From a virus: a stretch of DNA of 64,000 nucleotides. Both the position numbers and the translations under genes were made by a program. The DNA lies in the IMG/VR virus record IMGVR_UViG_3300025849_003059, positions 1 through 64,000 of that record; one strand, written 5' to 3'. The notes beneath the pieces are model-generated. The model was not told where the DNA came from. It did no database searches and saw nothing but the letters and a program-made list of their open reading frames with translations. Positions 7,496-25,436 of the stretch are shown here, piece by piece. Every line of letters starts with the position of its first letter. Position 1 is the first letter of the stretch.

Positions 7496-7497
7496 TC

Positions 7498-7863
7498 TTA
7501 TCTACTCACTATTTTTCCTTTCACTTCGAAGTCATCAGTATCATATAAGGATTGGTCTAATCCAACTGCTTCGGTGAAATTTATTATAATATCACTACCA
7601 TTATCTGTAACTGTATAGACATCTCCTTCAAGTTTTAATCCTTGTAGGTATAAATCTATATAGTCTGATAAATCATCAACTGCTATATCTTGAAATACAA
7701 ACTTTTTGTTTGTAAGAGTTACAGTTAATAATCCACCACTCAAAGTAACCGAATTTGGTATATGAGAAGTAACGAACGTATCTGTTATTACTTCAAGTAC
7801 CAAATCTTTTATTCTTTTCTTATCATTAAATGGAGTTATGATATTTGGTTTATTCTTGCTCAT
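7498..7863 (-). CDS. Small virion-associated protein, C-terminal module shared with neighbours
   Basis: A 121-residue protein of unknown function. It starts with ATG overlapping the end of the upstream gene by four bases (ATGA) and stops two bases before the giant fibre start. The N-terminal half (about 1-60) has no recognised family. The C-terminal ~55 residues (I-D-L-Y-L-Q-G-L-K-L ... I-I-I-N-F ... D-D-F-E-V-K-G-K-I) follow the pattern ending the next two upstream genes, including the gp15-like protein. This pattern resembles a small beta-rich module common in phage tail proteins (aromatic/aliphatic-I-N-G-x-x-L ... Y-x-V ... I-x-F ... G-D-x-I). Position between tail-completion and fibre genes suggests a tail or fibre-connector role; this is inference. 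Confidence 0.6.
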   Translation of the reverse strand: MSKNKPNIITPFNDKKRIKDLVLEVITDTFVTSHIPNSVTLSGGLLTVTLTNKKFVFQDIAVDDLSDYIDLYLQGLKLEGDVYTVTDNGSDIIINFTEAVGLDQSLYDTDDFEVKGKIVSR

Positions 7864-11023: not shown

Positions 11024-11056
11024 ATATTACTCTCCTTAACTTATACAATTATACTA

Positions 11057-11145: not shown

Positions 11146-12753
11146 TTATAGATTTGATAAATCTTTAACGTAGATTTTACCATAAAATTCTGGTCTAACC
11201 ATTTTCTTAGCGTATCTCGTCATAACTCCTCTTCTTGGAGTGAAGTTAGTCGGGTCATACACTAGAGGTGTCATGATTAATGGTACATACGGTGCGTAAA
11301 CAGCTCCAGTCTCAAGGAAGTTGCTTCCTTTGAATCCTAATAAGATTTCGTTAGAAGTCATATAAGGGTTCTTGTAAACTGTGTATCTGTTTGATAAAGA
11401 ACCAACACTAGTTACACCAGCTGCGAAAGACAATGCGTCTTTATCTGCAGATACTGTAAATCCTGGGATTGATTCTAAAATTGTACATACGTCTGGAGAT
11501 GCAACAACGAAGTTAGCACCACCTCTAAGAGTCAATTGGTGAATCTTGTTAGAAACTTTGTTAAGTTTCGCACCAAGAGTCTGGAACCAAGAGTTCTTAG
11601 TATAAGCTGCTGAGTTAGAACCTGCTAACCATGAGCCTGCTGCTGAATCATACTCTTCACCTAAAGTTACTGACCAGTATTCAGTTGTTAAAGCGTTAGC
11701 TTTTAACATATCAAGGATTTCTAGGTCAATCTCTAGTGAGATGTACTCAGATAACATTGAAGTTAATTCAGCTTCAGCATCAATACTGTGGTAAGCATTT
11801 AAATCTTGAGCAAGTTCAGGTGTCCATACTGCCTTTAATTTTCTAGTCTTAGCAACAATTGCTTCAGATTTCAATTCAAGGTCAACTTCAGGAATACCTA
11901 TATCAGTTGCTGGTTCAGATGGAGAAGCATCTTCGAAGTCTCCTCTTGTAATATCTGTTGGTTGTAAAGAATATTTTACGTTAACAGTTGATGGGTCACC
12001 AGTTTTCTTTACGATGAAAGAAATGTTAGTTCCATCTTCTGATGTATGTGCAGAATATACTTCTGTAATTGCTGCATCAACAACGTTAAATGCTCTTACT
12101 GCATCAGTATCAACATTACCAGTTAAAGAAGCAATTGCTACCTTTAATACTCCGATTTCTTCAGCTGCAACAGATGCAGATAAAGATGAATCAAAGTTTA
12201 CATCTGCAAGTGATGCAGAAGTTAATGATGCAACTGCTGCACCAGTTTCAGTTGATTCGTTTACTGTGTAACCGAATGCACCGTCTCCGTAAAGACCGTT
12301 TTCAGCTGCTGCAGTAGTACCAAATCCAGCACCTGCTGCAGAAGCTGCACCAGTACCACCGAATATTGATGAATTAGCTCCACCTGAAGTTCTACCTGCA
12401 GTTGAAGTACCATATTTAAAGTCTAAATAGAATATTAGACCTGATGGTAAGTTCATTGGTTGTACACTAACGAATTCTTTCGATGCAATTTCACCGAAAA
12501 TTCTTCTTACTAATGGAAGGGCTACACCACTCCACTCTTCAGAATTTGCTGAAGTACCTGTTGAGGTAGCTTCATCAAGCAATTGTTTTGCTTGGTTTTC
12601 TAACAATACAGATACCTGTGATTGTTCTCTTTCTCCTAAACCTTCAAGAAGTCCAGTTTGTTCCCATTTACCTTTAAGTTCTCTAGTCTCTGCTAGCATT
12701 ACTTGCTGTGGGTTTCTGCCTTCTGTAAGTTTAGATAAATCAAAATTTGCCAT
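11146..12753 (-). CDS. gp23: Major capsid protein precursor, T4 gp23-like
   Basis: A 535-residue protein forming the head hexamers (T4 gp23 is 521). Family hallmarks: the V-S-V-Q-P-M-N-L-P-S-G-L-I-F segment near 95, A-V-W-T-P-E-L-A-Q-D-L-N-A-Y-H-S-I-D-A-E-A-E-L in the middle (compare T4 IELAQDLRAVHGMDADAEL), and a C-terminal P-E-F-Y-G-K-I-Y-V-K-D-L. The N-terminal ~61 residues are a charged leader ending L-L-D-E|A (E61|A62), a plausible prohead-protease site near where T4 gp23 is cut (after E65). An insertion rich in Ala/Ser/Gly follows at about 115-260. The start is set by AAGGAG eight bases upstream. It follows the scaffold gene by 28 bases and ends at a UUCG terminator. Confidence 0.93.
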   Translation of the reverse strand: MANFDLSKLTEGRNPQQVMLAETRELKGKWEQTGLLEGLGEREQSQVSVLLENQAKQLLDEATSTGTSANSEEWSGVALPLVRRIFGEIASKEFVSVQPMNLPSGLIFYLDFKYGTSTAGRTSGGANSSIFGGTGAASAAGAGFGTTAAAENGLYGDGAFGYTVNESTETGAAVASLTSASLADVNFDSSLSASVAAEEIGVLKVAIASLTGNVDTDAVRAFNVVDAAITEVYSAHTSEDGTNISFIVKKTGDPSTVNVKYSLQPTDITRGDFEDASPSEPATDIGIPEVDLELKSEAIVAKTRKLKAVWTPELAQDLNAYHSIDAEAELTSMLSEYISLEIDLEILDMLKANALTTEYWSVTLGEEYDSAAGSWLAGSNSAAYTKNSWFQTLGAKLNKVSNKIHQLTLRGGANFVVASPDVCTILESIPGFTVSADKDALSFAAGVTSVGSLSNRYTVYKNPYMTSNEILLGFKGSNFLETGAVYAPYVPLIMTPLVYDPTNFTPRRGVMTRYAKKMVRPEFYGKIYVKDLSNL

Positions 12754-12781
12754 TTTTATCTCTCCTTAAATTTTTGTTAAA

Positions 12782-13993
12782 TTATTTAATGTTTGCTAAT
12801 TTCTTAAATCTATCCGCAATAGCGTTAGTTGATTCATTGATTACTTCCTTTTTAGGAGCAGTTGAAGCAACAGGCTTAGATGCGAATGATTCGTTGATTT
12901 TAGCAGTTTGTTTTGTTTTTCTCGTAGTTCCAGTAAATTTGAATGATTCAGCTAATGTACTGAATACCAATTTTACTTCTCTTACGTTACCAGTTCTATC
13001 TAATGTCTCAACAACTTTCATTTTTTGTTCGTTTGTTAAGTCATAAGACCTGAATAGTTTGTTAGTATAAAGAAGTTTTGCGTTAAGCAAGTTTACTTCG
13101 TTAATAGTAGATTTAAGTTCCTTGATAGTATCCATTGCTTCTGTAAGCTCTGATTTTACTTCTTCAAGTTCGTTAGTTTCTTCTACAACTTCTTCAGAAA
13201 CTTCTTCTTCTTCTTCAGATTCATCTTCTTCACCGTATCCCATTTCTCTTAGGATTTCGTTTAAGTCGATTTCTTCATCCAAATCTTCTTCTTCAGATTC
13301 TTCACCTTCGTGATTAGATTCTTCAACCTCTTCACCAGATTCTTCTTCTTCAGATTCTTCACCGTCAGAATGCATTTCTTCTTCGTGAGATTCGATTTCA
13401 TCAGATGCGATGTCAGATACTTCACCTTCTTCTTCATCATCAAGTTCTTCTTCAAGTTCTCTAATGATAGCTTCTAGGTCAAGTTCATCTTCTTCCTCTT
13501 CAGATTCCATAGTTTCTTCTACTTCTTCTTCAGATTCTTCTTCAGATACTTCTTCTTTTTCTTCATCTTCTTCCTCAGTTTCAGTTACAGTTAATGATAA
13601 TGATTCATCAACTTCTTTTTCTTCTTCGGATTCAGATACTTCAGATTCAGATACTTCAGTTGATTCCTCAACTTCTTCTTTATCTTCACCTTCAGTTACT
13701 TCTTCAGCTTCCTCTGAGATTTCTTCACCTTCAGTTACTTCTTCTTCAGTTACAGTTTCTTCTGTTACTTCTTCAGTTGCTTCTTCTACGGTATCAGTTG
13801 TCTCAACTACGTTTTCTTCATCCATTGTTTCTTCATCTTCCCCTTCCATTTCGGCTTGGAGTTTTTGAGATAGAATAGATTGTAAACGTGGTGTGAAAGC
13901 TTCTTCTAAAGCTATCTTAGCATTAGCAATTGCAGTTTCTCTAACAGCTTTTGCATCAGCGATAGCCTCTTTCAATAATTTTGAATTAGACAT
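12782..13993 (-). CDS. gp22: Prohead core scaffolding protein, T4 gp22-like, very acidic
   Basis: A 403-residue protein directly upstream of the major capsid gene, the position of gene 22 in T4. The N-terminus (S-K-L-L-K-E-A-I-A-D-A-K) and the region near 300-350 (L-T-E-A-M-D-T-I-K-E-L-K-S-T-I-N-E-V-N-L-L-N, then D-L-T-N-E-Q-K-M-K-V-V-E-T) match T4-like scaffold proteins. Between about 48 and 285 lies a low-complexity Glu/Ser/Asp/Thr tract, far longer than expected (T4 gp22 is 269 residues). The C-terminus carries I-N-E-S twice, resembling prohead-protease sites; T4 gp22 is degraded to peptides by gp21. A promoter-like element lies 144 bases upstream and AAAGG precedes the ATG. Confidence 0.82.
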   Translation of the reverse strand: MSNSKLLKEAIADAKAVRETAIANAKIALEEAFTPRLQSILSQKLQAEMEGEDEETMDEENVVETTDTVEEATEEVTEETVTEEEVTEGEEISEEAEEVTEGEDKEEVEESTEVSESEVSESEEEKEVDESLSLTVTETEEEDEEKEEVSEEESEEEVEETMESEEEEDELDLEAIIRELEEELDDEEEGEVSDIASDEIESHEEEMHSDGEESEEEESGEEVEESNHEGEESEEEDLDEEIDLNEILREMGYGEEDESEEEEEVSEEVVEETNELEEVKSELTEAMDTIKELKSTINEVNLLNAKLLYTNKLFRSYDLTNEQKMKVVETLDRTGNVREVKLVFSTLAESFKFTGTTRKTKQTAKINESFASKPVASTAPKKEVINESTNAIADRFKKLANIK

Positions 13994-14158: not shown

Positions 14159-15013
14159 TTAATTAAACGATAATAATTTATATTTTTTTATATAGTTTTC
14201 TATATATTCTGCTATTACTTCATGTCCTTTTTCTGAAGGATGTACATCATAAAATAATGAACTATCATTCTTTTCTTTTAAAATAGAATGTAAAGAATGG
14301 TTTTCTAAATCCTTATTCATAAATCTTATTGAATCTACTTCATCCCATAATTCTGGTTCTGAACTTCCTTGAAAATATGGGGTGTTTTCATCATCTTGTC
14401 TTTCATATTGAGATTCATTAAAAATATTAATATATTTTGAATCATACCATTCTAAAATTTTAGGGGAATAATTTGTATGATAAAATCCTTGAACAATTAG
14501 ATATGGTATTTTATATACTTTACAAAAATTTTGAAATGCGAGTATCTGGTCAAGATATCTTCGTAAATTATCTAAATCAGATTGTACCAATCTTGAGTAG
14601 GTATCGGCAAATTTATTGAAAGCAAAATCAAGATAATCATGTTCCCAATTTGGCCAAATAGTTTTCCATGTAGCAACTCCATCATTCTCTCCCTTGTAAT
14701 GAAAATCTCTTCTATCAAAAGATGAAAGTTGTACAACTACAAATACATCTTTAGATAATTTAGAATTTTTTATATAGTATCTGTAAAGATAGTTATATAG
14801 TTTTCTAAATATTTTATCATTTGAATCTGCAGGGAATGATAAATTTTTTTTAAAATTAATATTTAACTTTTGGGATAATAGTGTTGGGAATATATGCTTT
14901 TCTCGATACTTAGTATTTAATATATCCCACTCATCAATATGAGTTTCAATGGATGGGTCGATAATTTCACTACCAAACATCCAACTATCACCTGTTACTA
15001 TTAAGTCACACAT
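14159..15013 (-). CDS. SGNH/GDSL-type hydrolase-like protein
   Basis: A 284-residue protein with SGNH-hydrolase blocks: G-D-S-W near residues 8-11 (block I, nucleophile Ser) and D-V-H-P-S-E-K-G-H near 260 (block V, Asp-x-x-His). A middle V-V-V-Q-L-S-S-F-D-R-R segment may supply block III. Such enzymes are esterases or lipases, often acting on acetylated glycans. It starts ten bases after the bS21 gene and ends before the scaffold promoter. A role in removing acyl groups from a host surface sugar, or in modifying the phage's own glycan, is inference. It is an unexpected gene between head-core genes. Confidence 0.65.
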   Translation of the reverse strand: MCDLIVTGDSWMFGSEIIDPSIETHIDEWDILNTKYREKHIFPTLLSQKLNINFKKNLSFPADSNDKIFRKLYNYLYRYYIKNSKLSKDVFVVVQLSSFDRRDFHYKGENDGVATWKTIWPNWEHDYLDFAFNKFADTYSRLVQSDLDNLRRYLDQILAFQNFCKVYKIPYLIVQGFYHTNYSPKILEWYDSKYINIFNESQYERQDDENTPYFQGSSEPELWDEVDSIRFMNKDLENHSLHSILKEKNDSSLFYDVHPSEKGHEVIAEYIENYIKKYKLLSFN

Positions 15014-15023
15014 TGATTTAAAA

Positions 15024-15353
15024 TTACATTTTTAAACCAAAAGTTTTTTTTGGTTCTGTATTTTTATCGGTTTTGGGTTTGGGATTATTATTAGGTTTTG
15101 TTTTTTTCTTTTTAGTATAAAACCTTAAACTAGTATCACCATCGGCAATTTTACCAAGTATGGTTTCTTTTTGTTGTTCTCTAATAGCTTGTTGTTTTGC
15201 TTTTCTACGAACTGTTGTGGGTTTAGTATAAGTTTTTCTTTCTCGTAGTTCTAATAAATGACCAGAATCATTTACTCTTCTCTTATACTTTTTTAATGCT
15301 CTATTAATATCTCCTTTGATTACTTTAACAGAAACTAATTTTATTTTACTCAT
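15024..15353 (-). CDS. rpsU: Phage-encoded small-subunit ribosomal protein bS21, extended
   Basis: Residues about 1-65 read as a bS21 core: I-N-R-A-L-K-K-Y-K-R-R-V-N-D-S-G-H-L-L-E-L-R-E-R-K-x-Y-x-K-P-T-T-x-R-R-K-A-K, against the cellular A-L-R-R-F-K-R-x-x-x-x-x-G-x-L-x-E-x-R-R-R-x-x-Y-E-K-P-T-x-x-R-K-R-A. Cellular bS21 is about 60-70 residues; this one has 109, with a Lys/Asn/Pro-rich tail of ~45. bS21 sits near the anti-Shine-Dalgarno end of 16S rRNA and affects initiation. Phage copies are reported in marine viruses, so selective translation of phage messages is plausible. GGAG lies only one base from the ATG, unusually close. It has its own promoter-like element and lies among head genes. 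Confidence 0.85.
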   Translation of the reverse strand: MSKIKLVSVKVIKGDINRALKKYKRRVNDSGHLLELRERKTYTKPTTVRRKAKQQAIREQQKETILGKIADGDTSLRFYTKKKKTKPNNNPKPKTDKNTEPKKTFGLKM

Positions 15354-15381
15354 TCTCCTTTATTTAAGTGTAACTTTGTTT

Positions 15382-15393
15382 TATATAAGTATA
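15382..15393 (-). promoter_or_regulatory. Putative promoter element before bS21 (one mismatch)
   Basis: The coding strand reads TATACTTATATA, one base different from the TATATTTATATA element in other gaps. It lies 28 bases before the bS21 start, in the only clear gap of this stretch. Confidence 0.4.
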
Positions 15394-15406
15394 TACGTTT
15401 GAAGTT

Positions 15407-15751
15407 TTAAGAACCCTTGCCAGTTCCTGATTTTCTTCCTTTAGTGTGTGTAGAAACATTTATAGGTTTTTTACCTTGTCCTGCTGATTGAGAACCGCCA
15501 CGATTAGATTTGTTTTGTGCTGCTCTTTTTCTACGAGTTGCAGATTCTTTTTCTTTTTTACTCATAGTTTTGGCTTTAGCGGCAGGAACACATTTAGCAT
15601 ATCCTTTTTTCTTACCACTTGTACCACATGGGGGATGTTTACCACTTTTATCTTTTTTACCGATATTAACCCACTTGGATTTGAACCAGTTTCTTAAATC
15701 TTCATTTGTAGTTTCTTCAAATATCTCGTCTATGATATTTTGGAGTTTCAT
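15407..15751 (-). CDS. Basic DUF5872-like head-module protein with capsid-targeting-like leader
   Basis: A 114-residue, strongly basic protein. After a short acidic leader (MKLQNIIDEIFEE), residues about 24-80 (K-W-V-N-I-G ... H-P-P-C-G-T-S-G-K-K-K-G-Y-A-K-C-V-P-A-A-K-A ... R-R-K-R-A-A-Q) match the DUF5872-type family of many phages and some cells, with two conserved Cys. The family's function is unknown. The charge suggests nucleic-acid binding. The leader resembles T4 internal-protein signals (MKTYQEFIAEA), so packaging inside the head is plausible. It overlaps the upstream gene by four bases. Confidence 0.65.
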   Translation of the reverse strand: MKLQNIIDEIFEETTNEDLRNWFKSKWVNIGKKDKSGKHPPCGTSGKKKGYAKCVPAAKAKTMSKKEKESATRRKRAAQNKSNRGGSQSAGQGKKPINVSTHTKGRKSGTGKGS

Positions 15752-15978
15752 CTTTTTTCCAACTTATACTTCATAATGGTTCTATCATCTAATAGTTTAC
15801 CATTAACTGTCATCAACCTTTTACCTTTATAATATACATTCCAATTTCCTTTTGGAGTTGCATCAACAGTAATATCACGAAAATCTTTTATCTTATTATT
15901 AGATACTTGAATTGTATCCAAAAATTCTTCTGCTTTTGGGGTAAGTGAAATTTCGTTAAGAATATCTAGTAGTTTCAT
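15748..15978 (-). CDS. Small head-module protein with capsid-targeting-like leader
   Basis: A 76-residue protein of unknown function. It begins MKLLDILNEI, the same hydrophobic-x-x-hydrophobic-hydrophobic-x-Glu pattern as other small proteins here and similar to T4 internal-protein leaders. The rest is a compact, mildly basic domain with a W-N-V-Y-Y-K-G-K-R-L core that looks beta-rich. It lies one base after the preceding stop and overlaps the next gene by four bases. It is likely a capsid-internal protein, by inference. Confidence 0.55.
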   Translation of the reverse strand: MKLLDILNEISLTPKAEEFLDTIQVSNNKIKDFRDITVDATPKGNWNVYYKGKRLMTVNGKLLDDRTIMKYKLEKR

Positions 15979-15979
15979 A

Positions 15980-16978
15980 TTAGAGTTTTGCTTGATATAG
16001 TGCTTCTTGTTTATCGGCTGAAGTTTTGTATTTCTTGGGGTTTAATTTTAAATCTTTAAGAGATTTATCTAACCATTTTTCAAATACCCCTCTACCATAC
16101 TTTCTTTCAATCTTATCAAGTATATCGTAGAATGCAGTTTCAGATTTTGCTTTCTTTCTAAAAGCAATCACTTCTTTTTTACTTTCACCAAAAAGTTTTT
16201 TAGTAAGTCTTGCATTTGGATTATTAGGTTTACCAGCCAATGCCGATGCAAAGTTGATTCTACCTTGTAGGTTTGCTTTCTTAAGAGCTTTGAATAATTT
16301 CTTATCGTTTATTCTATTCTTATCAATAAAATCTTGTACTGCTGAACCACGAGTACCAGTTAGTGCTGCAATACCCATTGCTAACTTACCAGCTTCGTTT
16401 ACTGATTCTCTTGTTAGTTTGTATCCTTGTTTTGCAAGTGTTCCAACGAAATCACTTAAATCTTTTTTGTTCTTGAAGATTTTTATATCAAAGAAATCAC
16501 TGCCATCTTTGTGTTTCTTTTTTCCATCGTGATAAGATACTGTGTATTTTGCTTTACCAATACCATCTTGTCTTTTGAATCTTTTCTTACCTTCTTTTAC
16601 ATCAACACCTTTTACATTCTTCATTGATTGTTTGTCAAGAATCATTGTGTTGTGATTATTTCCTAAACTCTTAGCAAATTTTTCAGCATCTTTTCTATCT
16701 TTATATCCAGCTGCTGCAGGTTTACCAAAGACACCTTTCTTTTGGTAAAGAACATAGAACATATTAGAATTTCTATCTTCGTTTACTGATTCAATTGCGT
16801 ATTTTGCTTCTTTATCATCCCATTCTTTTTTAGACATAGAACCAATAGAGTCAACACCACTCTTAGATAGAATGTTATCCATATTCTTTTTCAAGAACAT
16901 ATTTGCTGCTCTTTGTGATTTGAATACTTTAAGTAATTTCTTACCTTTACGAGTGTCTATAAATGATACAAATTCCAT
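15980..16978 (-). CDS. Multi-domain basic head-module protein with internal SVNE sites
   Basis: I place the start at the ATG at 16978 (MEFVSFIDTRKG): AGGAG lies six bases upstream, and the longer reading would overlap the previous gene without such a site. The 332-residue product is basic and looks like three modules separated by near-identical linkers, I-E-S-V-N-E-D and R-E-S-V-N-E-A. Module 1 has G-K-K-L-L-K-V-F-K-S-Q-R-A-A; module 2 a V-L-Y-Q-K-K-G domain; module 3 is helical and Lys-rich. The linkers fit the loose T4 gp21 rule (hydrophobic-x-Glu|small). A polyprotein matured by the phage's own protease inside the prohead is the best reading. No enzyme family recognised. Confidence 0.6.
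   Translation of the reverse strand: MEFVSFIDTRKGKKLLKVFKSQRAANMFLKKNMDNILSKSGVDSIGSMSKKEWDDKEAKYAIESVNEDRNSNMFYVLYQKKGVFGKPAAAGYKDRKDAEKFAKSLGNNHNTMILDKQSMKNVKGVDVKEGKKRFKRQDGIGKAKYTVSYHDGKKKHKDGSDFFDIKIFKNKKDLSDFVGTLAKQGYKLTRESVNEAGKLAMGIAALTGTRGSAVQDFIDKNRINDKKLFKALKKANLQGRINFASALAGKPNNPNARLTKKLFGESKKEVIAFRKKAKSETAFYDILDKIERKYGRGVFEKWLDKSLKDLKLNPKKYKTSADKQEALYQAKL
16394..16408 (-). repeat. ESVNEA-encoding DNA repeat, copy A
   Basis: The plus strand reads AGCTTCGTTTACTGATTCT from 16391, identical over 19 bases to the copy at 20181 in a different gene. It encodes E-S-V-N-E-A on the minus strand. Confidence 0.7.
16778..16792 (-). repeat. ESVNE-encoding DNA repeat, copy B
   Basis: TTCGTTTACTGATTC, the same 15 bases as copies at 16394 and 20184, encoding E-S-V-N-E in another linker of the same protein as copy A. 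Confidence 0.7.
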
Positions 16979-16986
16979 ATTTTCTC

Positions 16987-17724
16987 CTAACACTTCTTCC
17001 AAGTTCCACCTTTACCCTTGTAGTTCTTAGCTGCCCAACCATTAGCGTAGGCAGAAGGATAAACATCAAATTTCTTTTTTGCTGCTGCTTTAGATGCAGA
17101 CCATTTACCAGCATCGGTAGGACAATTCTTTTCCATTAAGGTTTCAACCTTTTTTCCGAATTCGTAAAGAGCTCTTTCTTGTTCGTTTAATTCGTTTTCT
17201 TCTTTGATACGAGTTACGATATTACCACTCTCAGTTCTTTTAGAGATTGTTACTGCTTGTTCGTTTACTGATTTATCACCACCACATCCACAACCACAGC
17301 CACATCCACCATCTTTAGATTCTGATATACCTAATCTTTGTTTCATCTGGTCCTCTGTGATTTCGCCAATCTTGTAGTACCTTGAAAGAATGTGTCCCAT
17401 ATCTTCATATAATCCACCCATTCTTTGGTCAAGTGCCTTAGCTTCAAGAGCAACTTTATCGAATTGTTTACCCAACTTATCCAATTCACTCATGTTTCTC
17501 TTAACTGTATGCTTATCGAACCAATCATCACCTTCTCTAATAGCAAGTGTTCTAGCGGCTTCAGTAATTCCACCAAGTGTTTCAGCTACCTTTACGATAT
17601 CTGATTTTCTATCCATAGATTCTTGGTATTTGTTGTAAGTAGAAACAATTTCTAAGAAGTGTTTTTTTACTTCATTAGAAAGAGGTCTTTCTTCGTTTTC
17701 TTTAAGTAGTTGGGTTAATTTCAT
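16987..17724 (-). CDS. Head-module protein with Cys-Gly run and conserved phage C-terminal domain
   Basis: A 245-residue protein. It opens with MKLTQLLKENEE, a capsid-targeting-like leader, followed by a long helical region (about 15-130). A striking G-G-C-G-C-G-C-G-C-G-G run near 140-150 leads directly into K-S-V-N-E-Q, another copy of the repeated SVNE motif. The C-terminal ~50 residues (N-C-P-T-D-A-G-K-W-S-A-S-K-A-A-A-K-K-K-F-D-V-Y-P-S-A-Y-A-N-G-W-A-A) are a domain recurring in phage genomes with no settled function. The Cys cluster could bind metal or form disulphides in the virion. Capsid-internal location and cleavage at SVNE are inferred. Confidence 0.62.
   Translation of the reverse strand: MKLTQLLKENEERPLSNEVKKHFLEIVSTYNKYQESMDRKSDIVKVAETLGGITEAARTLAIREGDDWFDKHTVKRNMSELDKLGKQFDKVALEAKALDQRMGGLYEDMGHILSRYYKIGEITEDQMKQRLGISESKDGGCGCGCGCGGDKSVNEQAVTISKRTESGNIVTRIKEENELNEQERALYEFGKKVETLMEKNCPTDAGKWSASKAAAKKKFDVYPSAYANGWAAKNYKGKGGTWKKC
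17260..17273 (-). repeat. SVNE-encoding DNA repeat, copy D (14 of 15 bases)
   Basis: TTCGTTTACTGATT, matching the other copies over 14 bases, encodes K-S-V-N-E right after the Cys-Gly run. Confidence 0.6.
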
Positions 17725-17737
17725 TTTGTTCTCCTAA

Positions 17738-18502
17738 TTATATTCCTCTTATCAAACTTCCTATTTTTAATCTTCCTTCTTGTTTTTGTTGTGCATCTTT
17801 GAAAGATTTTAATATTGTATTTGCCAATTTATGTGAACCATTCATTTTTAAATCGAATACTAAACCTTCAATTGCAGTAGCACCACCCCATCCAGCTTCT
17901 TGAGATGATTTAATTCCTAATTCATATGCATCATCATCAACATCATCTGCGTATTGAGAAGCATATTTAGCTCTAACCACATCCATTTTTTTATCGTAAT
18001 CTTTATCATCGAATTTTGGATAATCTGGTTTCTCTCGTAACTCTGGTTTACCTTCTAAATCTGCAACTAACCATCTTGCTTCAGTATGGAAATTAGAATC
18101 AGTTAATGCTTCAACAGCTGCTTGAGCCATTTTCTTTTCGTATTCTTCTTTACCTATTTTTTTTGGTGAGATTCCAGCTTTCTGAGCTGCTTTACGAATT
18201 GCCTTGTTAACTTCTGGGTTTGCTTGGCCAGTTCCTTCTACTGAATTAGGAGTTGATAAATCTTCGCCACCATCCTTCTTAGGTTCATCTTTATCTTTAT
18301 TAAATATGTTTACTTTAGGAGTATCTTTTTTACCAGGTTCTTGTACGGCACTATCCTTATCATCTTTTCTTTTTTCATGAGTACCCGCTTTGATTGCAGA
18401 ATCTCTTGCAACTTTAGTTTTGAATACAGAAGTTGTACCAGTTTCTTTACTTGTAGCAGTAAATACCTCAGCCTCATTTATAAATTGTGATAGTTTAATC
18501 AT
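17738..18502 (-). CDS. Head-module protein with clear T4-type internal-protein leader
   Basis: A 254-residue protein starting MIKLSQFINEAEVF. This closely follows the T4 internal-protein signal MKTYQEFIAEA, which gp21 cuts after the Glu; here the cut would be I-N-E|A after residue 10. Next comes a T-S-V-F-K-T-K-x-A-R-D-x-A-I-K-A-G-T-H segment seen in other phage proteins, then a Lys/Asp-rich linker (about 45-90). A C-terminal helical domain contains A-Q-A-A-V-E-A-L and G-W-G-G-A-T-A-I-E-G-L. No catalytic motif was recognised. It is the strongest candidate here for a capsid-packaged internal protein. Confidence 0.65.
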   Translation of the reverse strand: MIKLSQFINEAEVFTATSKETGTTSVFKTKVARDSAIKAGTHEKRKDDKDSAVQEPGKKDTPKVNIFNKDKDEPKKDGGEDLSTPNSVEGTGQANPEVNKAIRKAAQKAGISPKKIGKEEYEKKMAQAAVEALTDSNFHTEARWLVADLEGKPELREKPDYPKFDDKDYDKKMDVVRAKYASQYADDVDDDAYELGIKSSQEAGWGGATAIEGLVFDLKMNGSHKLANTILKSFKDAQQKQEGRLKIGSLIRGI

Positions 18503-18524
18503 CTTTTTAGTTCCTTTTTTAAAT

Positions 18525-18665
18525 TTATTTTGAAACAGTTATGTTACCACCAATAGATGGAGACTTTCCACTTGATGTTGTTGGTTTTGTTATACCACCT
18601 AACGATATTTCCTTTGATTCAACTGGTTGAGTTGGTTTTGTTGGGTTTACATCTCCTATTGCCAT
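18525..18665 (-). CDS. Small Pro/Thr/Gly-rich head-module protein
   Basis: A 46-residue ORF (MAIGDVNPTKPTQPVE...) filling the gap between two larger genes. A good AGGAG lies eight bases before the ATG, and the ORF starts two bases after the upstream stop. It is rich in Thr, Pro, Gly and Ser and probably unstructured. Function unknown; the ribosome-binding site and tight spacing support reality. Confidence 0.55.
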   Translation of the reverse strand: MAIGDVNPTKPTQPVESKEISLGGITKPTTSSGKSPSIGGNITVSK

Positions 18666-18667
18666 AA

Positions 18668-18874
18668 TTAACTCCTATTTTTAAATTTATATTCTTTTGT
18701 TTCTTCTTTATGCGTGTATAAATCAAGTTTACCATCTTCAGTTAACTTAACTTCATAATTAGTTTTTCTAATATCATTGTGGCCTCCTTTAAATGGAGTA
18801 TCTCCAACAGCTTTTTTAACTGTTCCAAGGTCAATTGTATTTTTGGCCATATAATCTTGAATACTAAATCCCAT
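18668..18874 (-). CDS. Small conserved-looking head-module protein
   Basis: A 68-residue protein of unknown function between the protease gene and the 46-residue ORF. It begins MGFSIQDYMAKNTIDLG and has a Lys-rich C-terminal half with a likely beta-hairpin (Y-E-V-K-L-T-E-D-G-K-L-D-L-Y). It starts six bases after the protease stop. Possibly a minor prohead-core component, from context only. Confidence 0.55.
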   Translation of the reverse strand: MGFSIQDYMAKNTIDLGTVKKAVGDTPFKGGHNDIRKTNYEVKLTEDGKLDLYTHKEETKEYKFKNRS

Positions 18875-18880
18875 AACTTA

Positions 18881-19471
18881 TTAATTTAATTCTGTTATAA
18901 TTTCTCTCATCATATCTTGAGCTTTACAGTAATCTCCACAAACAACTTGTTCTTGTAATTGTTTATTTACTGATTCATTCATTGGAGTCATAAATGCTCC
19001 ATGTGTTGATGGGTTAGAAACAAAATCCCAACCGATTAACTCAAAATCTTCACCTACTTGTACTTTACCACCTGATAAAGGTTCTACTGAACCCATACCT
19101 CTTGATGATATACCTAAAAGAATTCCTGCTTTAAGTAGTTCTTTTAAGATGTTACCACTCGGTGTTGGAAGTATCTCTACTGTACCTACTAAATCATCAT
19201 TATCCCAATGAATCTCTCTTACATTGTGTGATACGTTCTTCAAGTTGATTACTGAAGAATCTGGATGGTCTAATTCACCAAGAGCACGTCTTTCTTTTAT
19301 AAGTGTTTCGTACTTCTTAGCTTCTCTTTGTAGAATCTCCATTGGATATATTCTACCATTCTGATTTTCTGCACCAGCTCTCTGTAAAATACCTTTAACA
19401 ATAGTTCTTCCACTATCATCTTCTTTTACTTTACCTTCGAATAATCTGGTTTCTATTAGTAGTTTACTCAT
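18881..19471 (-). CDS. gp21: Prohead maturation protease, T4 gp21-like
   Basis: A serine protease of the T4 gp21 (S77-type) family, which cleaves capsid, scaffold and internal proteins during head maturation. I use the ATG at 19471 (MSKLLIETRLF), which overlaps the upstream stop as TAATG and has GGGGAG in front, rather than an upstream GTG; the product is 196 residues. Landmarks: N-G-R-I-Y-P near 38-43, G-E-L-D-H-P (65-70) with the presumed catalytic His, G-I-S-S-R-G (120-125) with the presumed nucleophile Ser, and F-V-S-N-P-S-T-H-G-A-F just after. Its own C-terminus contains N-E-S-V-N-K, close to the SVNE motif in neighbours, perhaps an autoprocessing site. Confidence 0.9.
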   Translation of the reverse strand: MSKLLIETRLFEGKVKEDDSGRTIVKGILQRAGAENQNGRIYPMEILQREAKKYETLIKERRALGELDHPDSSVINLKNVSHNVREIHWDNDDLVGTVEILPTPSGNILKELLKAGILLGISSRGMGSVEPLSGGKVQVGEDFELIGWDFVSNPSTHGAFMTPMNESVNKQLQEQVVCGDYCKAQDMMREIITELN

Positions 19472-19647
19472 TATGCTCCCCACATTTTACGTTTCTTAAA
19501 TAAATCAAAGAAAATTGCAGATACTTCTTGTCGAATTAAATCTCGAATAAGTTTTTCATCGTCATTCGTGATTTCTTCGCTGATTCTATCCAATTTTACA
19601 TTTTGGATTTCTTCATTGATGATATCGTACAACTCTCTCTTAGTCAT
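19471..19647 (-). CDS. Small acidic head-core-type protein
   Basis: A 58-residue ORF (MTKRELYDIINEEIQ... ending K-R-K-M-W-G-A). Its ATG directly follows the upstream TAA, and its own TAA overlaps the protease ATG, so translation is probably coupled through all three. The N-terminal half (I-I-N-E-E-I) resembles the leader patterns of other small head proteins; the C-terminal half is a basic amphipathic helix. Function unknown; possibly a small prohead-core protein, like gp67/gp68 next to gene 21 in T4, but I see no sequence match. Confidence 0.55.
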   Translation of the reverse strand: MTKRELYDIINEEIQNVKLDRISEEITNDDEKLIRDLIRQEVSAIFFDLFKKRKMWGA

Positions 19648-19923
19648 TTATTTTTTTTCTTTTTTCTCAATTGCCTTTTGAAGTGCTGGTGGTAGTTTTT
19701 TCTGAGCTGCGGTCAACTCTTCTGCCACTTGTTCTTTTTTTTCTCCTCTACCTTTCCAAGTAGCATCGATTTTATTAAAGAATGCCTTCTTTTCTTCATC
19801 AGACATAGATGGAATTGATTTTCCAGCTTTTTCCAATGCTTTTTTGAAGAATTCTTGATATTCGTTTTCTTCAATCATTGTTTCTCTGATGATTTCTTTT
19901 AATCTATTTTTTGATATTTTCAT
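19648..19923 (-). CDS. Small head-module protein with conserved phage C-terminal motif
   Basis: A 91-residue, highly charged protein. The leader MKISKNRLKEIIRE fits the capsid-targeting-like pattern. The central S-D-E-E-K-K-A-F-F-N-K-I-D-A-T-W-K-G-R-G-E and following L-T-A-A-Q-K-K-L-P-P-A-L-Q-K-A-I motifs recur as a small domain in T4-like and other phage head-region proteins, of unknown function. It overlaps the upstream gene by four bases and ends right before the next ATG. Confidence 0.6.
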   Translation of the reverse strand: MKISKNRLKEIIRETMIEENEYQEFFKKALEKAGKSIPSMSDEEKKAFFNKIDATWKGRGEKKEQVAEELTAAQKKLPPALQKAIEKKEKK

Positions 19924-20735
19924 TTTTCAATCTCCTGTATTGTTCGAGCGATATTAATTAATCTCTCCTTTATCTTATAAATATGATTATTTGTTCTTTT
20001 CCAATACTGATTGGAATCCAACTCATTCATAGTTTTGATTTTATTATACCAATTGAAAAATTTCTCAGTTTCTCTTAGTTGATATTTTAATTCTTTTAAA
20101 CCCATTGCCATCTTCTTATGAGGATGCATTGTTTCATCGTTCTTTAATTCTAACCAACGATTAACAGGTCTTTTCACTTTAGCTTCGTTTACTGATTCTT
20201 TTAAATACTTTTTCCAATCTGAAAAATCTGGTGCTTTGTCAACTTCAATAAAATTACTTTTATATCTTAACTTAGGTTGTTTACTTAAATCATATCCTAA
20301 TCTAACAGCAACTTTCTTTTTTAAATCTACATAAAAAAGTGCACCATGATAATCAATTAAGTATGCACCTTTTTTACCATCAATAAATCCAGGTATATTT
20401 TTTAATAATACACCAGGAGATGTTAATCCTAAACCAGAATGTCCTGCAATATATTTTACAGGTGTATCTTTAGTAAGTTGAAAATATTCATGTCCTCTTT
20501 TTGGAGATACCAATCCTTCATTAATATCATCTTCATCAATCTTACCAACTATCTTCATACCAAATTGAGTTGAAATCTTTTTCTTTCTTTTCTTATCTTT
20601 TCTACCACCATCAGAGAAAGCACCAGGCACATTATAACCTGCCACATTACCTGTTGCAGTTGCTTCATCTAATTCTTTTTCAATTTCTTGAATTAGTTCA
20701 TCAATAAAGTTATTAAGGTTTTTTTCCATTGACAT
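19920..20735 (-). CDS. Head-module protein with ATATGNVAGYNVPGAF motif and SVNEA site
   Basis: A 271-residue protein. The N-terminus is an acidic helix ending E-L-D-E|A, then A-T-A-T-G-N-V-A-G-Y-N-V-P-G-A-F, a motif often found early in structural or core proteins of T4-like phages. A middle beta-rich domain (about 95-180) is followed by K-E-S-V-N-E-A near 185, the same motif and near-identical DNA as in the protein at 15980. The C-terminus is a helical Lys/Glu-rich domain. Both E|A sites suit the prohead protease, giving a probable processed core protein. It overlaps the upstream gene by 23 bases; AAGGAA precedes the ATG. Confidence 0.62.
   Translation of the reverse strand: MSMEKNLNNFIDELIQEIEKELDEATATGNVAGYNVPGAFSDGGRKDKKRKKKISTQFGMKIVGKIDEDDINEGLVSPKRGHEYFQLTKDTPVKYIAGHSGLGLTSPGVLLKNIPGFIDGKKGAYLIDYHGALFYVDLKKKVAVRLGYDLSKQPKLRYKSNFIEVDKAPDFSDWKKYLKESVNEAKVKRPVNRWLELKNDETMHPHKKMAMGLKELKYQLRETEKFFNWYNKIKTMNELDSNQYWKRTNNHIYKIKERLINIARTIQEIEK
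20184..20198 (-). repeat. ESVNEA-encoding DNA repeat, copy C
   Basis: TTCGTTTACTGATTC, part of a 19-base identity with copy A (AGCTTCGTTTACTGATTCT), in a gene about 3.8 kb away. It encodes K-E-S-V-N-E-A. Confidence 0.7.
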
Positions 20736-21582
20736 TTTTTATTTCCTTTACTAACTCATAAGACATCATTAAAGCGGAAACCTGGTCATCGTTAATTTTC
20801 TTACCGATTTTTTGTTTTTTCAAAACATTAATAGTTTCACGCAATTTAATTTTTGTAATCTTATCTTTCATTCCTTTATACAAATCATGTAATTCGGTAA
20901 TTGTTCTTATAAGTTCTTTCTCAAAGTAATCACCAAATTTAGATGTGTTAGTAATGTTGTTAATATACTCTCTTAATAATCCTTTTTGTATTTCATTTAA
21001 GTTAGTATATTTTTTGTTGAAAGTTTCTACAAGAATTTTATAAGTAAGTAATCTTAAATCCTTTTCTTGTTTTTTGTAATCTTCAACGAGTCTGTCCTCT
21101 TTTTGTTTAAGAGTTGGAATTGAGTTGGAAATATGTTCAACGATAGTAAGTTTAGAATCAAAAATATCTTTTACATCAAGAATATCATTTTTCTTTCCTT
21201 CAAATAATTTATGTACTGATGCTAAAATCTTGTAATTGGTAACAGGCGAAGATAAAAGATTATCAATTTCAAAGTTTTCTTTTATTGATTTAACAAGATT
21301 GAATTTCTCTCTTTTTAATTTTGAGTAATTAATTTTCGTATGTGCTTCTAATATGGCATCAATAAATTTCTCAGCTTTAAGTTCTGAGTTATATTTTTCA
21401 TTTATTAACAGATTATACAATCGAAGTTCTTTGGCAAGTTCAGTTTTTCCACTAAAGAATTCTCTAACAATTTCTTTAGCTTTTTCTTCACCACCATTTA
21501 AAACTTCAAGTGTAATCTGACGGGTTAGTATTTCGAAAAGAAAACCCGTATTCTTGAATTTTGAATGTCTTACTTTTTTCAT
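20713..21582 (-). CDS. Helical head-module protein next to the portal gene
   Basis: The preferred start is the ATG at 21582 (MKKVRHSKFKNTGFLFEIL); a TTG 15 bases upstream is possible but less likely. The ~289-residue protein is almost wholly helical and rich in Lys, Leu, Ile and Glu. Its early H-S-K-F-K-N-T-G-F-L-F-E-I-L-T-R-Q-I-T segment resembles conserved hypothetical proteins beside the portal gene in marine T4-like phages. No catalytic motif. It sits between portal and protease, where T4 encodes prohead-core proteins gp67 and gp68, so a core or scaffold role is possible. A promoter-like element lies 39 bases upstream. Confidence 0.6.
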   Translation of the reverse strand: MKKVRHSKFKNTGFLFEILTRQITLEVLNGGEEKAKEIVREFFSGKTELAKELRLYNLLINEKYNSELKAEKFIDAILEAHTKINYSKLKREKFNLVKSIKENFEIDNLLSSPVTNYKILASVHKLFEGKKNDILDVKDIFDSKLTIVEHISNSIPTLKQKEDRLVEDYKKQEKDLRLLTYKILVETFNKKYTNLNEIQKGLLREYINNITNTSKFGDYFEKELIRTITELHDLYKGMKDKITKIKLRETINVLKKQKIGKKINDDQVSALMMSYELVKEIKNVNGKKP

Positions 21583-21621
21583 TTTAATAATTTCCAATTA
21601 CAATATTATAAAATTACTCTA

Positions 21622-21632
21622 TTATAAATATA
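21622..21632 (-). promoter_or_regulatory. Putative phage promoter element downstream of portal gene
   Basis: The coding strand reads TATATTTATAA, 39 bases before the next ATG, in the 73-base gap after the portal stop. The flank (TTATATTTATAATAG) closely resembles the gp13 element (TTATATTTATAGTAG). Confidence 0.5.
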
Positions 21633-21655
21633 AATTTATAAAAGATTAACTATTT

Positions 21656-23383
21656 TTAATCATTATCGAGGATATTGGATTCATCCAACATATCCTTCAT
21701 TTCATGTAAATACTTACGTTTTGCTGATATACCGTTGATAACTTTCAACGCTTTTTCCTCAGAAGTACGAGAACGTTTTGATGTTCTCTCCTTATCACCT
21801 AAAGGGTCTCTACCTAATGGATGTTTATCTTTTCCATAAGTTCCACCTTCACGAGGCCTTCCACCTTTATCTTTAATTTCTTGTTTGATATTTTCAATTT
21901 GTTCTTCAATATCATCTGGTTCTTCAGATTCCATTGCAGGGTCGTTACCCTCATCTTCAATCATACGATAACGATATCTATCTTTAATATCATCAAGTAT
22001 TTTTGTTCTTTCATCATCTTGAGCACCATCTGCAACTTTAAAGATGTTTTCGTAAACCCATTCTTTAGATAACATATTTAATCCTTGAATATCTTGAGCC
22101 AATCTAATTTTTTCACTCCACAAGTTTACTTTTTCTTGTTCGTAAATTGTAGATGGATTTACAAGTTTTAATTCAAAGTTAGTCATTTCAAAATCTTGAA
22201 TTCCTTGTGAGTACAAATGAACTATTGCAATCTTAGATAATTCTGAAATAAGTGTTCTTTGGATTCTTTCAATCGTTCTTGCAAATCTTACATCTTCTGC
22301 AGCAAGAGTTGCTTTACCATTTATATTTTCTTCGTATCCTAAATAAGCTTTTGGAATCTTTAATGCTGCAAACATTTTGTTTTTTAAATAATCAATATCA
22401 TCAATAGTTGCGTACTCTAAACCTGCAAGGTTATCAATAGATGTACCACTATCACCGCCACGAACAGGAAGATAGAAATCTTCTGTTAAGTTTTGCATAT
22501 TGTACTTTAAGTTGTAATCACCAGTATTTCTATCGATGAAAGGAACTTTCTTCATCTTGTTGATGATTCTCTGCATATAGTTATCCACTTCTGTTGGTGG
22601 GATATTACCAATATCAATTTTGAAAACTCTTTTTTCAGGTGCTCTCATGATTCTATGGATTAACATAGCATCTTCCATTAGAGATAATTGTTTCCACAAT
22701 CTTCTTCCATTCTCAATCATAGATTTACCATATGGTAACCAGTTAGTATCTGCTAACAACCTAAAATGAGCAATTTCAAAGTTTTCATATTCTTCTTTTC
22801 CATTCGGGTCCTCAGTAATTTTAAACTTTACTGAATTTGGATTCGATGGGTCTGTTCTTTCTAATCTTTCTGTATTGTAAACTGAATGAGGAGTAACATT
22901 TACGATACCTTTACCTTCTGCAACTTCTAAACCTAAGAAGAAATCTCCATATTTTACCAAGTTTCTTGTCCAAGGCCATAGGTTAAACTCTACATTAAGA
23001 ATATCGTAGAATAAGTTTTCTAATAATCCTTGTACTTTTGGATTATCCGATTGAACAAGAAGTACATCACCAAATTCGTTCTTTAATGTACATTCATCTG
23101 CATATATATCAAGAGCCGATGCTAATATCGGGTCGTTATCCATTGCATCGTAATCTCTAAAAACTTCTCTACGAACTTGTTGGTATGCCATTGATTGTGC
23201 ACCACCTGCTTGTTCAAAAAAAGATTTCTGTAATTTTGTGTATCTATCTCTTAAAGAAGATAAGTTTGTTTGTTGACGTTCATCACCATCAAACACTTTT
23301 CGTTTACCATCTTTATCGATAGTAACTACTGCTTGTGCTCTAAAGAGTTTTGTTAACCTCCCAAAAAATGAAGTATCTGCCAT
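21656..23383 (-). CDS. gp20: Portal vertex protein, T4 gp20-like
   Basis: The dodecameric portal through which DNA enters and leaves the head. The 575-residue product (T4 gp20 is 524) shows gp20-type features: R-D-Y-D-A-M-D-N-D-P-I-L-A-S-A-L-D-I-Y-A-D-E-C-T near 70-95, the stem region with A-A-L-K-I-P-K-A-Y-L-G-Y-E-E-N-I-N-G-K-A-T-L-A-A-E-D-V-R-F-A-R-T-I-E-R-I-Q, and a charged, disordered-looking C-terminus (after about 480) with E-G-G-T-Y-G-K-D-K-H-P-L-G-R-D-P-L-G. It follows a small virion-type gene and the terminase. AGGAAA is seen before the ATG. Confidence 0.9.
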   Translation of the reverse strand: MADTSFFGRLTKLFRAQAVVTIDKDGKRKVFDGDERQQTNLSSLRDRYTKLQKSFFEQAGGAQSMAYQQVRREVFRDYDAMDNDPILASALDIYADECTLKNEFGDVLLVQSDNPKVQGLLENLFYDILNVEFNLWPWTRNLVKYGDFFLGLEVAEGKGIVNVTPHSVYNTERLERTDPSNPNSVKFKITEDPNGKEEYENFEIAHFRLLADTNWLPYGKSMIENGRRLWKQLSLMEDAMLIHRIMRAPEKRVFKIDIGNIPPTEVDNYMQRIINKMKKVPFIDRNTGDYNLKYNMQNLTEDFYLPVRGGDSGTSIDNLAGLEYATIDDIDYLKNKMFAALKIPKAYLGYEENINGKATLAAEDVRFARTIERIQRTLISELSKIAIVHLYSQGIQDFEMTNFELKLVNPSTIYEQEKVNLWSEKIRLAQDIQGLNMLSKEWVYENIFKVADGAQDDERTKILDDIKDRYRYRMIEDEGNDPAMESEEPDDIEEQIENIKQEIKDKGGRPREGGTYGKDKHPLGRDPLGDKERTSKRSRTSEEKALKVINGISAKRKYLHEMKDMLDESNILDND

Positions 23384-23423
23384 GTTTTCCTAATTTATGT
23401 TATAACCTTTATTAATTAATTTA

Positions 23424-23813
23424 TTACCATTTTCTACAAGACCAATATCTTGCTTTGTGTCTTGGACCTGGTGAATCACAGTTGTGTCTTGCTCTAAATG
23501 CTTTTCTTGCATCTGGATTATTCTTTCGAATAGACATTGTTTTTTCTCCTGATTTCTTTGCGGAACTTCCTCCATGTCCGAAGTTTACTTTGACAACATT
23601 TCCTTTAGGGTTTTTAACATATACTTTGAATTTCTTGGTATCACCTTGCATCGGTTTACCTAATTTTACAGTTCTACCTTGATATTCTGCTTCATTTATA
23701 TCAGATTTATATTCTTTCATAAATTCACAAAATTCTTTTATATCATGGTAATTTTCCACAGTATATTCTTCTGTATGTACTTCTTCTTTAAGTAATTCCT
23801 GCAATGATATCAT
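23424..23813 (-). CDS. Small virion-type protein with CDSPGP...RYWSC C-terminus
   Basis: A 129-residue protein between terminase and portal. It begins MISLQELLKEEV, a capsid-targeting-like leader, and near residue 38 has D-I-N-E-A-E-Y, another E|A protease-type site. The C-terminal domain ends M-S-I-R-K-N-N-P-D-A-R-K-A-F-R-A-R-H-N-C-D-S-P-G-P-R-H-K-A-R-Y-W-S-C, a motif common in head-region proteins of many marine phages; its two Cys may bind metal. Function unknown. A promoter-like element ends 15 bases before the ATG and AGGAG lies between them. Confidence 0.68.
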   Translation of the reverse strand: MISLQELLKEEVHTEEYTVENYHDIKEFCEFMKEYKSDINEAEYQGRTVKLGKPMQGDTKKFKVYVKNPKGNVVKVNFGHGGSSAKKSGEKTMSIRKNNPDARKAFRARHNCDSPGPRHKARYWSCRKW

Positions 23814-23828
23814 ATTTTATTCTCCTAA

Positions 23829-23843: not shown

Positions 23844-25436
23844 TTATTTAATTAACCAAGTTAAATCTTCATTTGAATCACCAACTCTCATTTTCCATGG
23901 GTTTTCTTCCATCGCTGAATTACCACCAAAGCCCATTCCTGCAACATCCAATTGATGTGCTCCAATACCACCTAATGCTTGTTTTGTTAAATCAATTCCT
24001 TCTTGTCTTAATCGGAGGGCAGTATCTCTAACCCACAATCCGATTGATAATGACATTGTTAAATCATCATTATAACCTCTCATAGCTTCTGCTCTATTAC
24101 CATTCCATATAAATGTAAATAATTCATCGATAGTTCTTGATGAACGAATAGTAATATCCTTTTCTCTAATATATTGTTCTAATTTAGATATGATTAAAGG
24201 TCTTGTTTTAGATGTTGTACTAAATCCAGCAACCATTCCTCTATCTTGTCTATTATATTTGTTATTTAATTGATTTTCGGTATCTACATATTTTAAGTCC
24301 TTACTCATATAGAAAGTATTTTGATAACCTCTATCAATTACTTGTTGTAAAACTGCCCAACCAATATTTGCATTCTCAACTACAAGTAATGCGTTGTTAT
24401 AATCAGTTGCAAGGGAAACTAAAAAGTTTCCAAAATCTTTTGTATCTAATTTACCTTTATATTCTGCAACTTGCGCTGCTTCTTCTATATCAATTACATG
24501 ACAAGCTGAAAAGTCACTTGAATCTCCACGAGCAACATCCGCAACTACCATATAAGATTTCTGATAGTTTGGATATTCCCATTTCCACAAGTTTCCATCA
24601 AATCCTGTCTTTTCAACAGGTTCTTGTACAAATGATTCTTTATAGAACATTAAAAGTTGTGGGTCAATCACAGTATCACCCGAAGATACAAAATCACAAT
24701 CACATTCTTGTGCTGCTCCTTTTTTTCCTAATAATACCTCTTGTTCATCTCTCCAATCTTGGTCTCTTTCTGGATGTACACTCCAATGTAATCTAATTGT
24801 GTTAAAAGTATTTGTTTCTTCTTCTGCACCTACCCAAGTTTTGTGAAAGAAGTTTCCTACACCATTTGGTGTTGAAAGTATGATTGCATTACCACCAGTC
24901 GATAGTGTAGATTGTGCTGATACCCATATATCTTCAATCTTATCAATAAATGCTGCCTCATCAAATACTAATAGAGATAGTGCTTCAGAACGACCAGCAT
25001 CTCCAGCGGCTGAAGTTGCTTTTATCTGAGAACCGTTCGAGTATCTTAGAGATAGTTTATTATCCTCTACTGTTGTTTGTTTTAACCACGATGGTAAGTA
25101 CTGGTTCATCACACGAACCTTCGTTACAAGGTTCTTAGCAACTTCTTGTTTAGTTGCAATTACCAATACATTAAAATCTTGATTGAATAGCATTTTCCAA
25201 AGAGAAAATCCCGCGGTTAGGGTTGAGATACCCGTTTGTCGAGATTTAAGAATGATGTTGTATCTATGTTCTGCAAACTCATTTAAAGTTCTTTCTTGAA
25301 ACTGATATAAGTGAAAAGGAATTTTACCTCTAACTGGATGTTGTATCATACAGTACTTCTTCATGAAGTATATAGGGTCTTGAGCACATTTCTGATACTC
25401 AATTTTTATTATTTCCTTTAAACTTTGTTTAGCCAT
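23844..25436 (-). CDS. gp17: Terminase large subunit (packaging ATPase-nuclease), T4 gp17-like
   Basis: The motor that pumps DNA into the prohead and cuts concatemers. The 530-residue protein has an N-terminal ATPase: Walker A-like S-R-Q-T-G-I-S-T (65-72), Walker B L-L-V-F-D-E-A-A-F-I (155-164) with catalytic Glu, and coupling motif L-S-T-P-N-G (187-192). The C-terminal RNase H-like nuclease shows acidic residues at M-V-V-A-D-V-A-R-G-D (D300), L-L-V-V-E-N-A (E354) and G-Y-N-D-D-L-T-M-S (D457/D458). The Walker A lacks the usual Lys before Ser/Thr, having Gly-Ile-Ser-Thr; an upstream Arg or Lys may serve, as in other deviant terminases. T4 gp17 is 610 residues. No small terminase subunit was recognised. 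Confidence 0.93.
   Translation of the reverse strand: MAKQSLKEIIKIEYQKCAQDPIYFMKKYCMIQHPVRGKIPFHLYQFQERTLNEFAEHRYNIILKSRQTGISTLTAGFSLWKMLFNQDFNVLVIATKQEVAKNLVTKVRVMNQYLPSWLKQTTVEDNKLSLRYSNGSQIKATSAAGDAGRSEALSLLVFDEAAFIDKIEDIWVSAQSTLSTGGNAIILSTPNGVGNFFHKTWVGAEEETNTFNTIRLHWSVHPERDQDWRDEQEVLLGKKGAAQECDCDFVSSGDTVIDPQLLMFYKESFVQEPVEKTGFDGNLWKWEYPNYQKSYMVVADVARGDSSDFSACHVIDIEEAAQVAEYKGKLDTKDFGNFLVSLATDYNNALLVVENANIGWAVLQQVIDRGYQNTFYMSKDLKYVDTENQLNNKYNRQDRGMVAGFSTTSKTRPLIISKLEQYIREKDITIRSSRTIDELFTFIWNGNRAEAMRGYNDDLTMSLSIGLWVRDTALRLRQEGIDLTKQALGGIGAHQLDVAGMGFGGNSAMEENPWKMRVGDSNEDLTWLIK

Follow-up and report, generated by a model that had tools for sequence, protein, structure and literature searches.

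A phage ribosomal protein bS21 with arginine at the anti-Shine-Dalgarno clamp site, encoded in a T4-like head operon with Shine-Dalgarno-bearing late genes

The open reading frame (ORF) at 15024-15353 on the minus strand of the window, a 64,000-nt stretch of a virus record of 83,472 bases, is a genuine bS21 gene within a T4-like head operon. Its product has arginine at the position aligned with the tyrosine that helps to occlude the anti-Shine-Dalgarno (ASD) sequence in Flavobacterium johnsoniae ribosomes, and late genes of this phage group tend to carry Shine-Dalgarno (SD) sequences. We tentatively favor a reading in which a late, clamp-less phage bS21 displaces the host protein and leaves the ASD free to pair with SD-led phage mRNAs, the main alternatives being a replacement that leaves SD recognition unchanged and a host that reads SDs by itself. 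In the favored reading, phage bS21, expressed late, would take the place of host bS21 on 30S subunits, and the remodelled ribosome would expose its ASD, since the phage copy has arginine in place of the aromatic residue by which Bacteroidia ribosomes clamp the 3' tail of their 16S rRNA. SD-bearing late mRNAs (capsid, neck and other head proteins) would gain preferred initiation, and SD-less host and early-phage mRNAs would lose ground. Ribosome incorporation, ASD release, late expression and the effect on translation are steps that we infer.

The first-pass annotation had recognized a clear bS21 core in this ORF, and its strand and coordinates stand as given. The 109-aa product belongs to PHROG 21469 (ribosomal protein S21) and matches the curated profile PF01165 over residues 8-60 with 45 bits against a cut-off of 27, which together with the AlphaFold helices at residues 13-28, 31-38 and 48-70 defines the two-helix ribosomal domain (15174-15332, minus strand). 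By inspection, the N-terminus, MSKIKLVSVKVIKGDIN, leads directly into this core and holds no capsid-targeting sequence. Used as a query against cultured phages, the protein gave weak matches only, to prophage, Klebsiella/Salmonella and metagenomic copies, and a profile search of genome contigs with the bS21 alignment found no relative. No tRNA genes were found in the window.

Placement in a head operon, as annotated earlier, agrees with the order gp17, gp20, gp21, bS21, gp22 and gp23 on one strand (minus). The large terminase gp17 (23844-25436) is 54-57% identical to those of Flavobacterium phage immuto and Microcystis phage Mel-JY01, the gp20 portal (21656-23383) has a tblastn match to an immuto gene annotated as gp20-like, and the gp21 prohead protease (18881-19483) matches PF03420. 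The gp22-like scaffold (12782-13993) was assigned by its position and by tblastn homology to the immuto and Mel-JY01 genes in the same place, and the major capsid protein gp23 (11146-12753; PF07068) is 52-53% identical to those of Mel-JY01 and immuto; by terminase and gp23, no cultured relatives are closer than these two phages. A bS21 gene ~1.5-2.6 kb before gp23, upstream of gp22 and on the same strand, is found in many T4-like contigs, reaching down to 40% gp23 identity; in Mel-JY01 it lies between gp21 and gp22, with one additional gene before gp22, and immuto has no bS21. In the window, a DUF6071/GDSL-like (SGNH) protein is encoded between bS21 and gp22 (14159-15013, minus strand), an arrangement seen besides only in L005 among the first 25 loci checked. 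The scaffold is extremely acidic, with long Glu/Asp runs, and the long Ser-rich ORFs on its opposite strand are probably spurious. Many of the small head-operon proteins encoded at 15407-23813 (minus strand) share similar short N-termini that resemble T4 capsid-targeting sequences (MKLQNIIDEIFEE, MKLLDILNEI, MKLTQLLKE, MIKLSQFINEAE and MISLQELLKEE); the head may accordingly package many internal proteins. Elsewhere on the minus strand, a long repetitive open region at 1-7500 runs off the window end and probably encodes a large tail-fibre-like protein, and the overlapping genes at 30652-52912, whose products include no fewer than two clear radical SAM/SPASM proteins (a third scored under the cut-off), nucleotide-sugar epimerases, a glycosyltransferase 7 and a methyltransferase, form a sugar or peptide modification cluster that is unusually large for a phage.

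C-terminal to the core, bS21 continues for ~46 residues. A Lys/Asn/Pro tail of ~45 residues had been described; this holds for the last ~25 (15027-15101, minus strand), where the sequence varies and is of low complexity, with a (Y/F)GLK end partly conserved in several copies, but not for residues 64-84, ETILGKIADGDTSLRFYTKKK, a conserved segment common to relatives (ETILGKIxDGDTxLRFYTKKK, 15102-15164, minus strand; clade-wide after the core, KETILGKIxDGDTxLRFYTKKK). IMG/VR yielded 25 relatives directly and 47 with the alignment, and residues 64-84 recur in ~20 related viral contigs, which answers the question of conservation in other phage copies and rules out a tail unique to the window sequence. 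Distant bS21 copies in the same slot have no tail (75 aa in Mel-JY01, 58-70 aa in many others), and the tail, being common to the clade, is thus a clade trait. In the AlphaFold model, helix 2 reaches residue 70 and the remainder is of low confidence, with pLDDT mostly below 50 from residue 95 and lowest in the variable C-terminus. The tail is predicted to extend helix 2 by about ten residues and to end as a disordered basic extension, which probably adds rRNA affinity. A role that is no longer ribosomal, in which this basic protein would bind nucleic acid, DNA or RNA, while heads assemble or packaging proceeds, would suit the basic tail and the head operon; it is very improbable, given that the ribosomal core residues are strongly conserved, that the long tail is limited to the clade and its neighbours, and that short copies fill the same slot in relatives.

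The first-pass annotation had also proposed that a modified copy steers ribosomes toward phage messages, which is consistent with the SDs of the late genes, although Arg58, at the Tyr54 site, is a likelier candidate than the tail for the modification that counts. The Arg58 codon (15180-15182, minus strand) was placed by an ungapped alignment with PDB 7jil, in which query residues 15-58 correspond to chain residues 11-54, and the KP+13 position agrees. Tyr54 of F. johnsoniae helps to block the ASD by stacking on it, and position 54 is aromatic in all 61 phage bS21 copies examined by Chen et al. (2022; PMC9723584). R58 is invariant in clade A1. A class-Bacteroidia sample has Tyr in 28/30 sequences, with one His and one Arg (read by eye, as were L155, Tyr; L160, Arg; and L044-L046, Tyr). 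However, Arg or Lys is usual at this site in Pseudomonadota, as it is in many Bacteroidota that do not belong to the Bacteroidia sample; Arg58 may thus reflect no more than the host's own residue. In F. johnsoniae, ribosomes whose bS21 is truncated or has Y54A translate strong-SD mRNAs better, Y54A ribosomes giving 3-fold more protein from a strong-SD mRNA, and those with truncated bS21 lose on SD-less mRNAs (PMC9976891). By analogy, one would expect a similar effect from arginine at the clamp site of a late phage bS21. Counting against the favored reading, bS18 and bS6 are likewise part of the ASD pocket.

The leader of bS21 bears on when the protein might be made. Where a promoter-like element had been annotated, TATATACTTATATAA is indeed present (15381-15395, minus strand), and its exact match occurs at bS21 only within the window. 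Among homologous leaders TATACTTATA and TATATTTATA are interchangeable, and most leaders of the clade have one or the other, then GTTACA, then AGGAGAATGAG. Upstream of genes in G001, a 276-kb relative, TATTTATA is over-represented (31 sense, 8 antisense and 5 expected), and it precedes neck, tail and other structural genes. This late-promoter motif and the head-operon placement support the earlier suggestion of a late factor, insofar as late expression may be read from them. Immediately 5' of the bS21 ATG lies AGGAGA (15354-15359, minus strand), invariant in 15 aligned sequences, whose GGAG is 1 nt from the start, confirming an earlier remark that GGAG sits nearly on the ATG; AGGAGAATGAG is invariant in 15/15 aligned leaders. 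The Tyr-type relative L044 keeps GTTACA and ATGAG and has no AGGAGA, which is likewise missing from the Arg-type L040 group. As SD spacing is usually ~5-9 nt, AGGAGA at 1 nt is probably too close to the ATG for normal SD use. Conceivably, though we consider it doubtful, an SD-blind Bacteroidia ribosome is made SD-reading late by the clamp-less bS21 of the phage and the invariant AGGAGA acts as a brake: freed ASDs would pair there in a non-productive register, halting further bS21 synthesis. An SD-like element at the bS21 gene is shared with F. johnsoniae, whose autoregulation involves bS21 control of ASD access and bS21-less ribosomes (McNutt et al., 2023; PMC9976891). However, host rpsU SDs are extended (9-13 bp; PMC9976891), whereas those of the window measure 5-7 nt (AGGAG to TAAGGAG), with 1 nt to the ATG at bS21; the extended SD at working distance that marks SD-autoregulated Bacteroidota rpsU is missing there, its place being taken by AGGAGA at 1-nt spacing.

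SDs at working distances are found at other head genes of the window, all on the minus strand. TAAGGAG lies 8 nt before gp23 (12762-12768; TAAGGAG, AAGGAG or AAGGA at 8-10 nt across the clade) and 8 nt before the neck/head-tail adaptor gene (11032-11038; PHROG 211 connector), and AGGAG precedes the genes at 16987-17724 and 23424-23813 by 6 and 8 nt, respectively (17731-17735 and 23822-23826). Those at 6-10 nt before gp23, the neck gene and the genes at 16987, 19648 and 19920 are conserved in the clade. In G001, SD motifs precede 16/46 late-promoter genes vs 1/22 early-promoter genes (Fisher p=0.007), and by a pairing-energy criterion 15/44 vs 1/22 (p=0.013), counts that, like the genome-wide ones below, are approximate because genes were called as the longest ATG ORFs in 20-kb pieces; the mean pairing energy of G001 is no different from mock.

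Genome-wide SD enrichment was detected in 9/16 sampled genomes of the window's bS21 lineage (G001, G000, G158, G156, G149, G151, G163, G150 and Mel-JY01) vs 0/10 others, which carry Bacteroidia-derived bS21 or none (p=0.004, a comparison that ignores kinship among related genomes); G150, G151 and G163 were put in the lineage by operon slot, their bS21s being outside the tree. The residue at the clamp site follows this pattern in part. The Arg-type L042 has an SD frequency of 0.317 vs 0.073 in mock, and its close Tyr-type relatives L044 and L046 are not enriched; nor are four of the five Tyr-type lineage members (G165, G004, G153 and G157, the first two with identical bS21), the fifth, G150, being Tyr-type yet SD-enriched. 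Within the lineage, the difference between non-aromatic and aromatic types (8/11 vs 1/5 enriched) is not significant (p=0.11), and the genomes are related. Arg58 does not always mean SD use: G002 and G152, Arg-type members of the same lineage, show no genome-wide enrichment, with SDs at 5/29 late-promoter genes in G002, and the Arg-type G147 and G148, with Bacteroidia-derived bS21, show no SD use. Nor does the presence of bS21 strictly predict an SD at gp23, since ten loci have the former without the latter (L100, L105, L107, L110, L113, L116, L118, L119, L122 and L124). No SDs were found in immuto, which has no bS21.

Rather unlikely, though it ranks first among the alternatives, is that phage bS21 merely keeps late 30S subunits complete or resists the turnover of host bS21, with SD recognition unchanged. 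The bS21 of Pelagibacter phage HTVC008M is reported to enter E. coli 70S ribosomes, and substitution with unchanged ASD occlusion has already been proposed (PMC9723584); additionally, many bS21-bearing phages are without SD enrichment, and SDs may be a mark of highly expressed genes whatever the host, which counts against the favored reading. Such a replacement, however, leaves unexplained both the late-only SDs of G001 and the clade-wide loss of the clamp residue.

A further alternative concerns the host. A phylogeny had been envisaged as a way to identify the host lineage, but the bS21 tree (103 rows), weak because it has 65 columns only, gives none, since the 17 rows among which the window protein falls are all from phages, a lineage (support 81/89, on few columns) outside the sampled Bacteroidia, other Bacteroidota and Pseudomonadota. 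A second phage set (L025, L167, L172, L107, L113 and L098) is nested in Bacteroidia, and phage bS21 genes thus appear to have at least two origins. The host phylum is likely Bacteroidota. G001, together with the 19 kb of the window's contig that lie outside the window, holds ~30 elements close to TTTGG-N19/20-TATATTTG and 31/33 TCGTATATT matches, most of the latter in that context; these elements resemble the Bacteroidota promoter consensus, with TTTG at -33 and TAnnTTTG at -7 (PMC7366714). E. coli-type promoter hexamers, including TTGACA, show no enrichment in G001. Early-promoter-like elements of the form ATTTGGATAT-N-TTTTCGTATATTTG/AC number ~30 in two clade contigs, L058-L071 (G001) and L072. 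Also pointing to Bacteroidota are a weak BACON-domain match, the Flavobacterium host of immuto and, as a weak sign given their mixed labels, 13 MAG contigs found with gp23, five of them Flavobacteriales/Flavobacteriaceae (two from one MAG). The favored reading supposes, beyond the phylum, a host of the Bacteroidia type. The SD-rich G149, G151 and G158 lack promoters of the Bacteroidota type in the regions read, and their hosts may be different.

Alternatively, the host, for example a non-Bacteroidia member of the Bacteroidota, may have arginine in its own bS21 and ribosomes that read SDs, and phage bS21 and SDs would merely match them. Arginine is indeed present in 24/30 high-scoring bS21s of a phylum-wide Bacteroidota sample, forming one clade, whose loci lie slightly above mock in SD frequency (0.193 vs 0.123) and are somewhat enriched in TAnnTTTG too. 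We nevertheless judge this unlikely: SDs are missing from early-promoter phage genes, the tree places the window bS21 apart from the Arg-type cellular proteins, and immuto, the cultured relative, has a Flavobacterium host, although neither bS21 nor SDs occur in it. Packaging of bS21 in the head, with injection and activity at the onset of infection, is an idea raised before (PMC9723584) and would suit a gene among others with capsid-targeting-like N-termini; the suggestion of a virion-carried factor fares poorly, however, as bS21 starts directly with its core and the early genes, which an injected factor would help most, are without SDs, making it highly improbable.

Phage bS21 near structural genes, its occurrence in Bacteroidota phages, its late expression and its possible carriage in the virion are already published (PMC9723584). 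In the Bacteroidota lake phages of Chen et al. (2022; PMC9723584), as in the window, the gene lies near terminase, portal, protease and capsid genes, and it is expressed late. Those copies, however, are on the strand opposite the structural genes, are all aromatic at position 54 and resemble Flavobacteriia bS21, whereas the window copy and the listed head-operon relatives share the strand of the operon, and the window protein, with an Arg58 invariant in its clade and a long tail, belongs to a phage-only lineage and goes with late genes that bear SDs. HTVC008M also encodes bS21, and its incorporation into ribosomes was shown (Mizuno et al., 2019; PMC6375957), but it is not detectably close, Pelagibacter phages being absent from the tblastn matches of the window protein. 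Mel-JY01 resembles the window in its bS21 in the gp21-gp22 slot on the same strand and in its SD-bearing head genes, and differs in that its bS21 has 75 aa, no tail and a highly divergent sequence. In the literature searched we found no account of a clamp-less variant in a Bacteroidota-type phage, of its phage-only lineage, of an SD bias among late genes or of an invariant AGGAGA-ATG. In the Bacteroidia system the residue and the rRNA target are both defined and an mRNA feature is predicted, and the idea of a specialized ribosome is thereby open to a test by a one-point change (R58Y). Late SDs together with a clamp-less bS21 thus suggest a testable route by which host ribosomes may be turned to phage messages.
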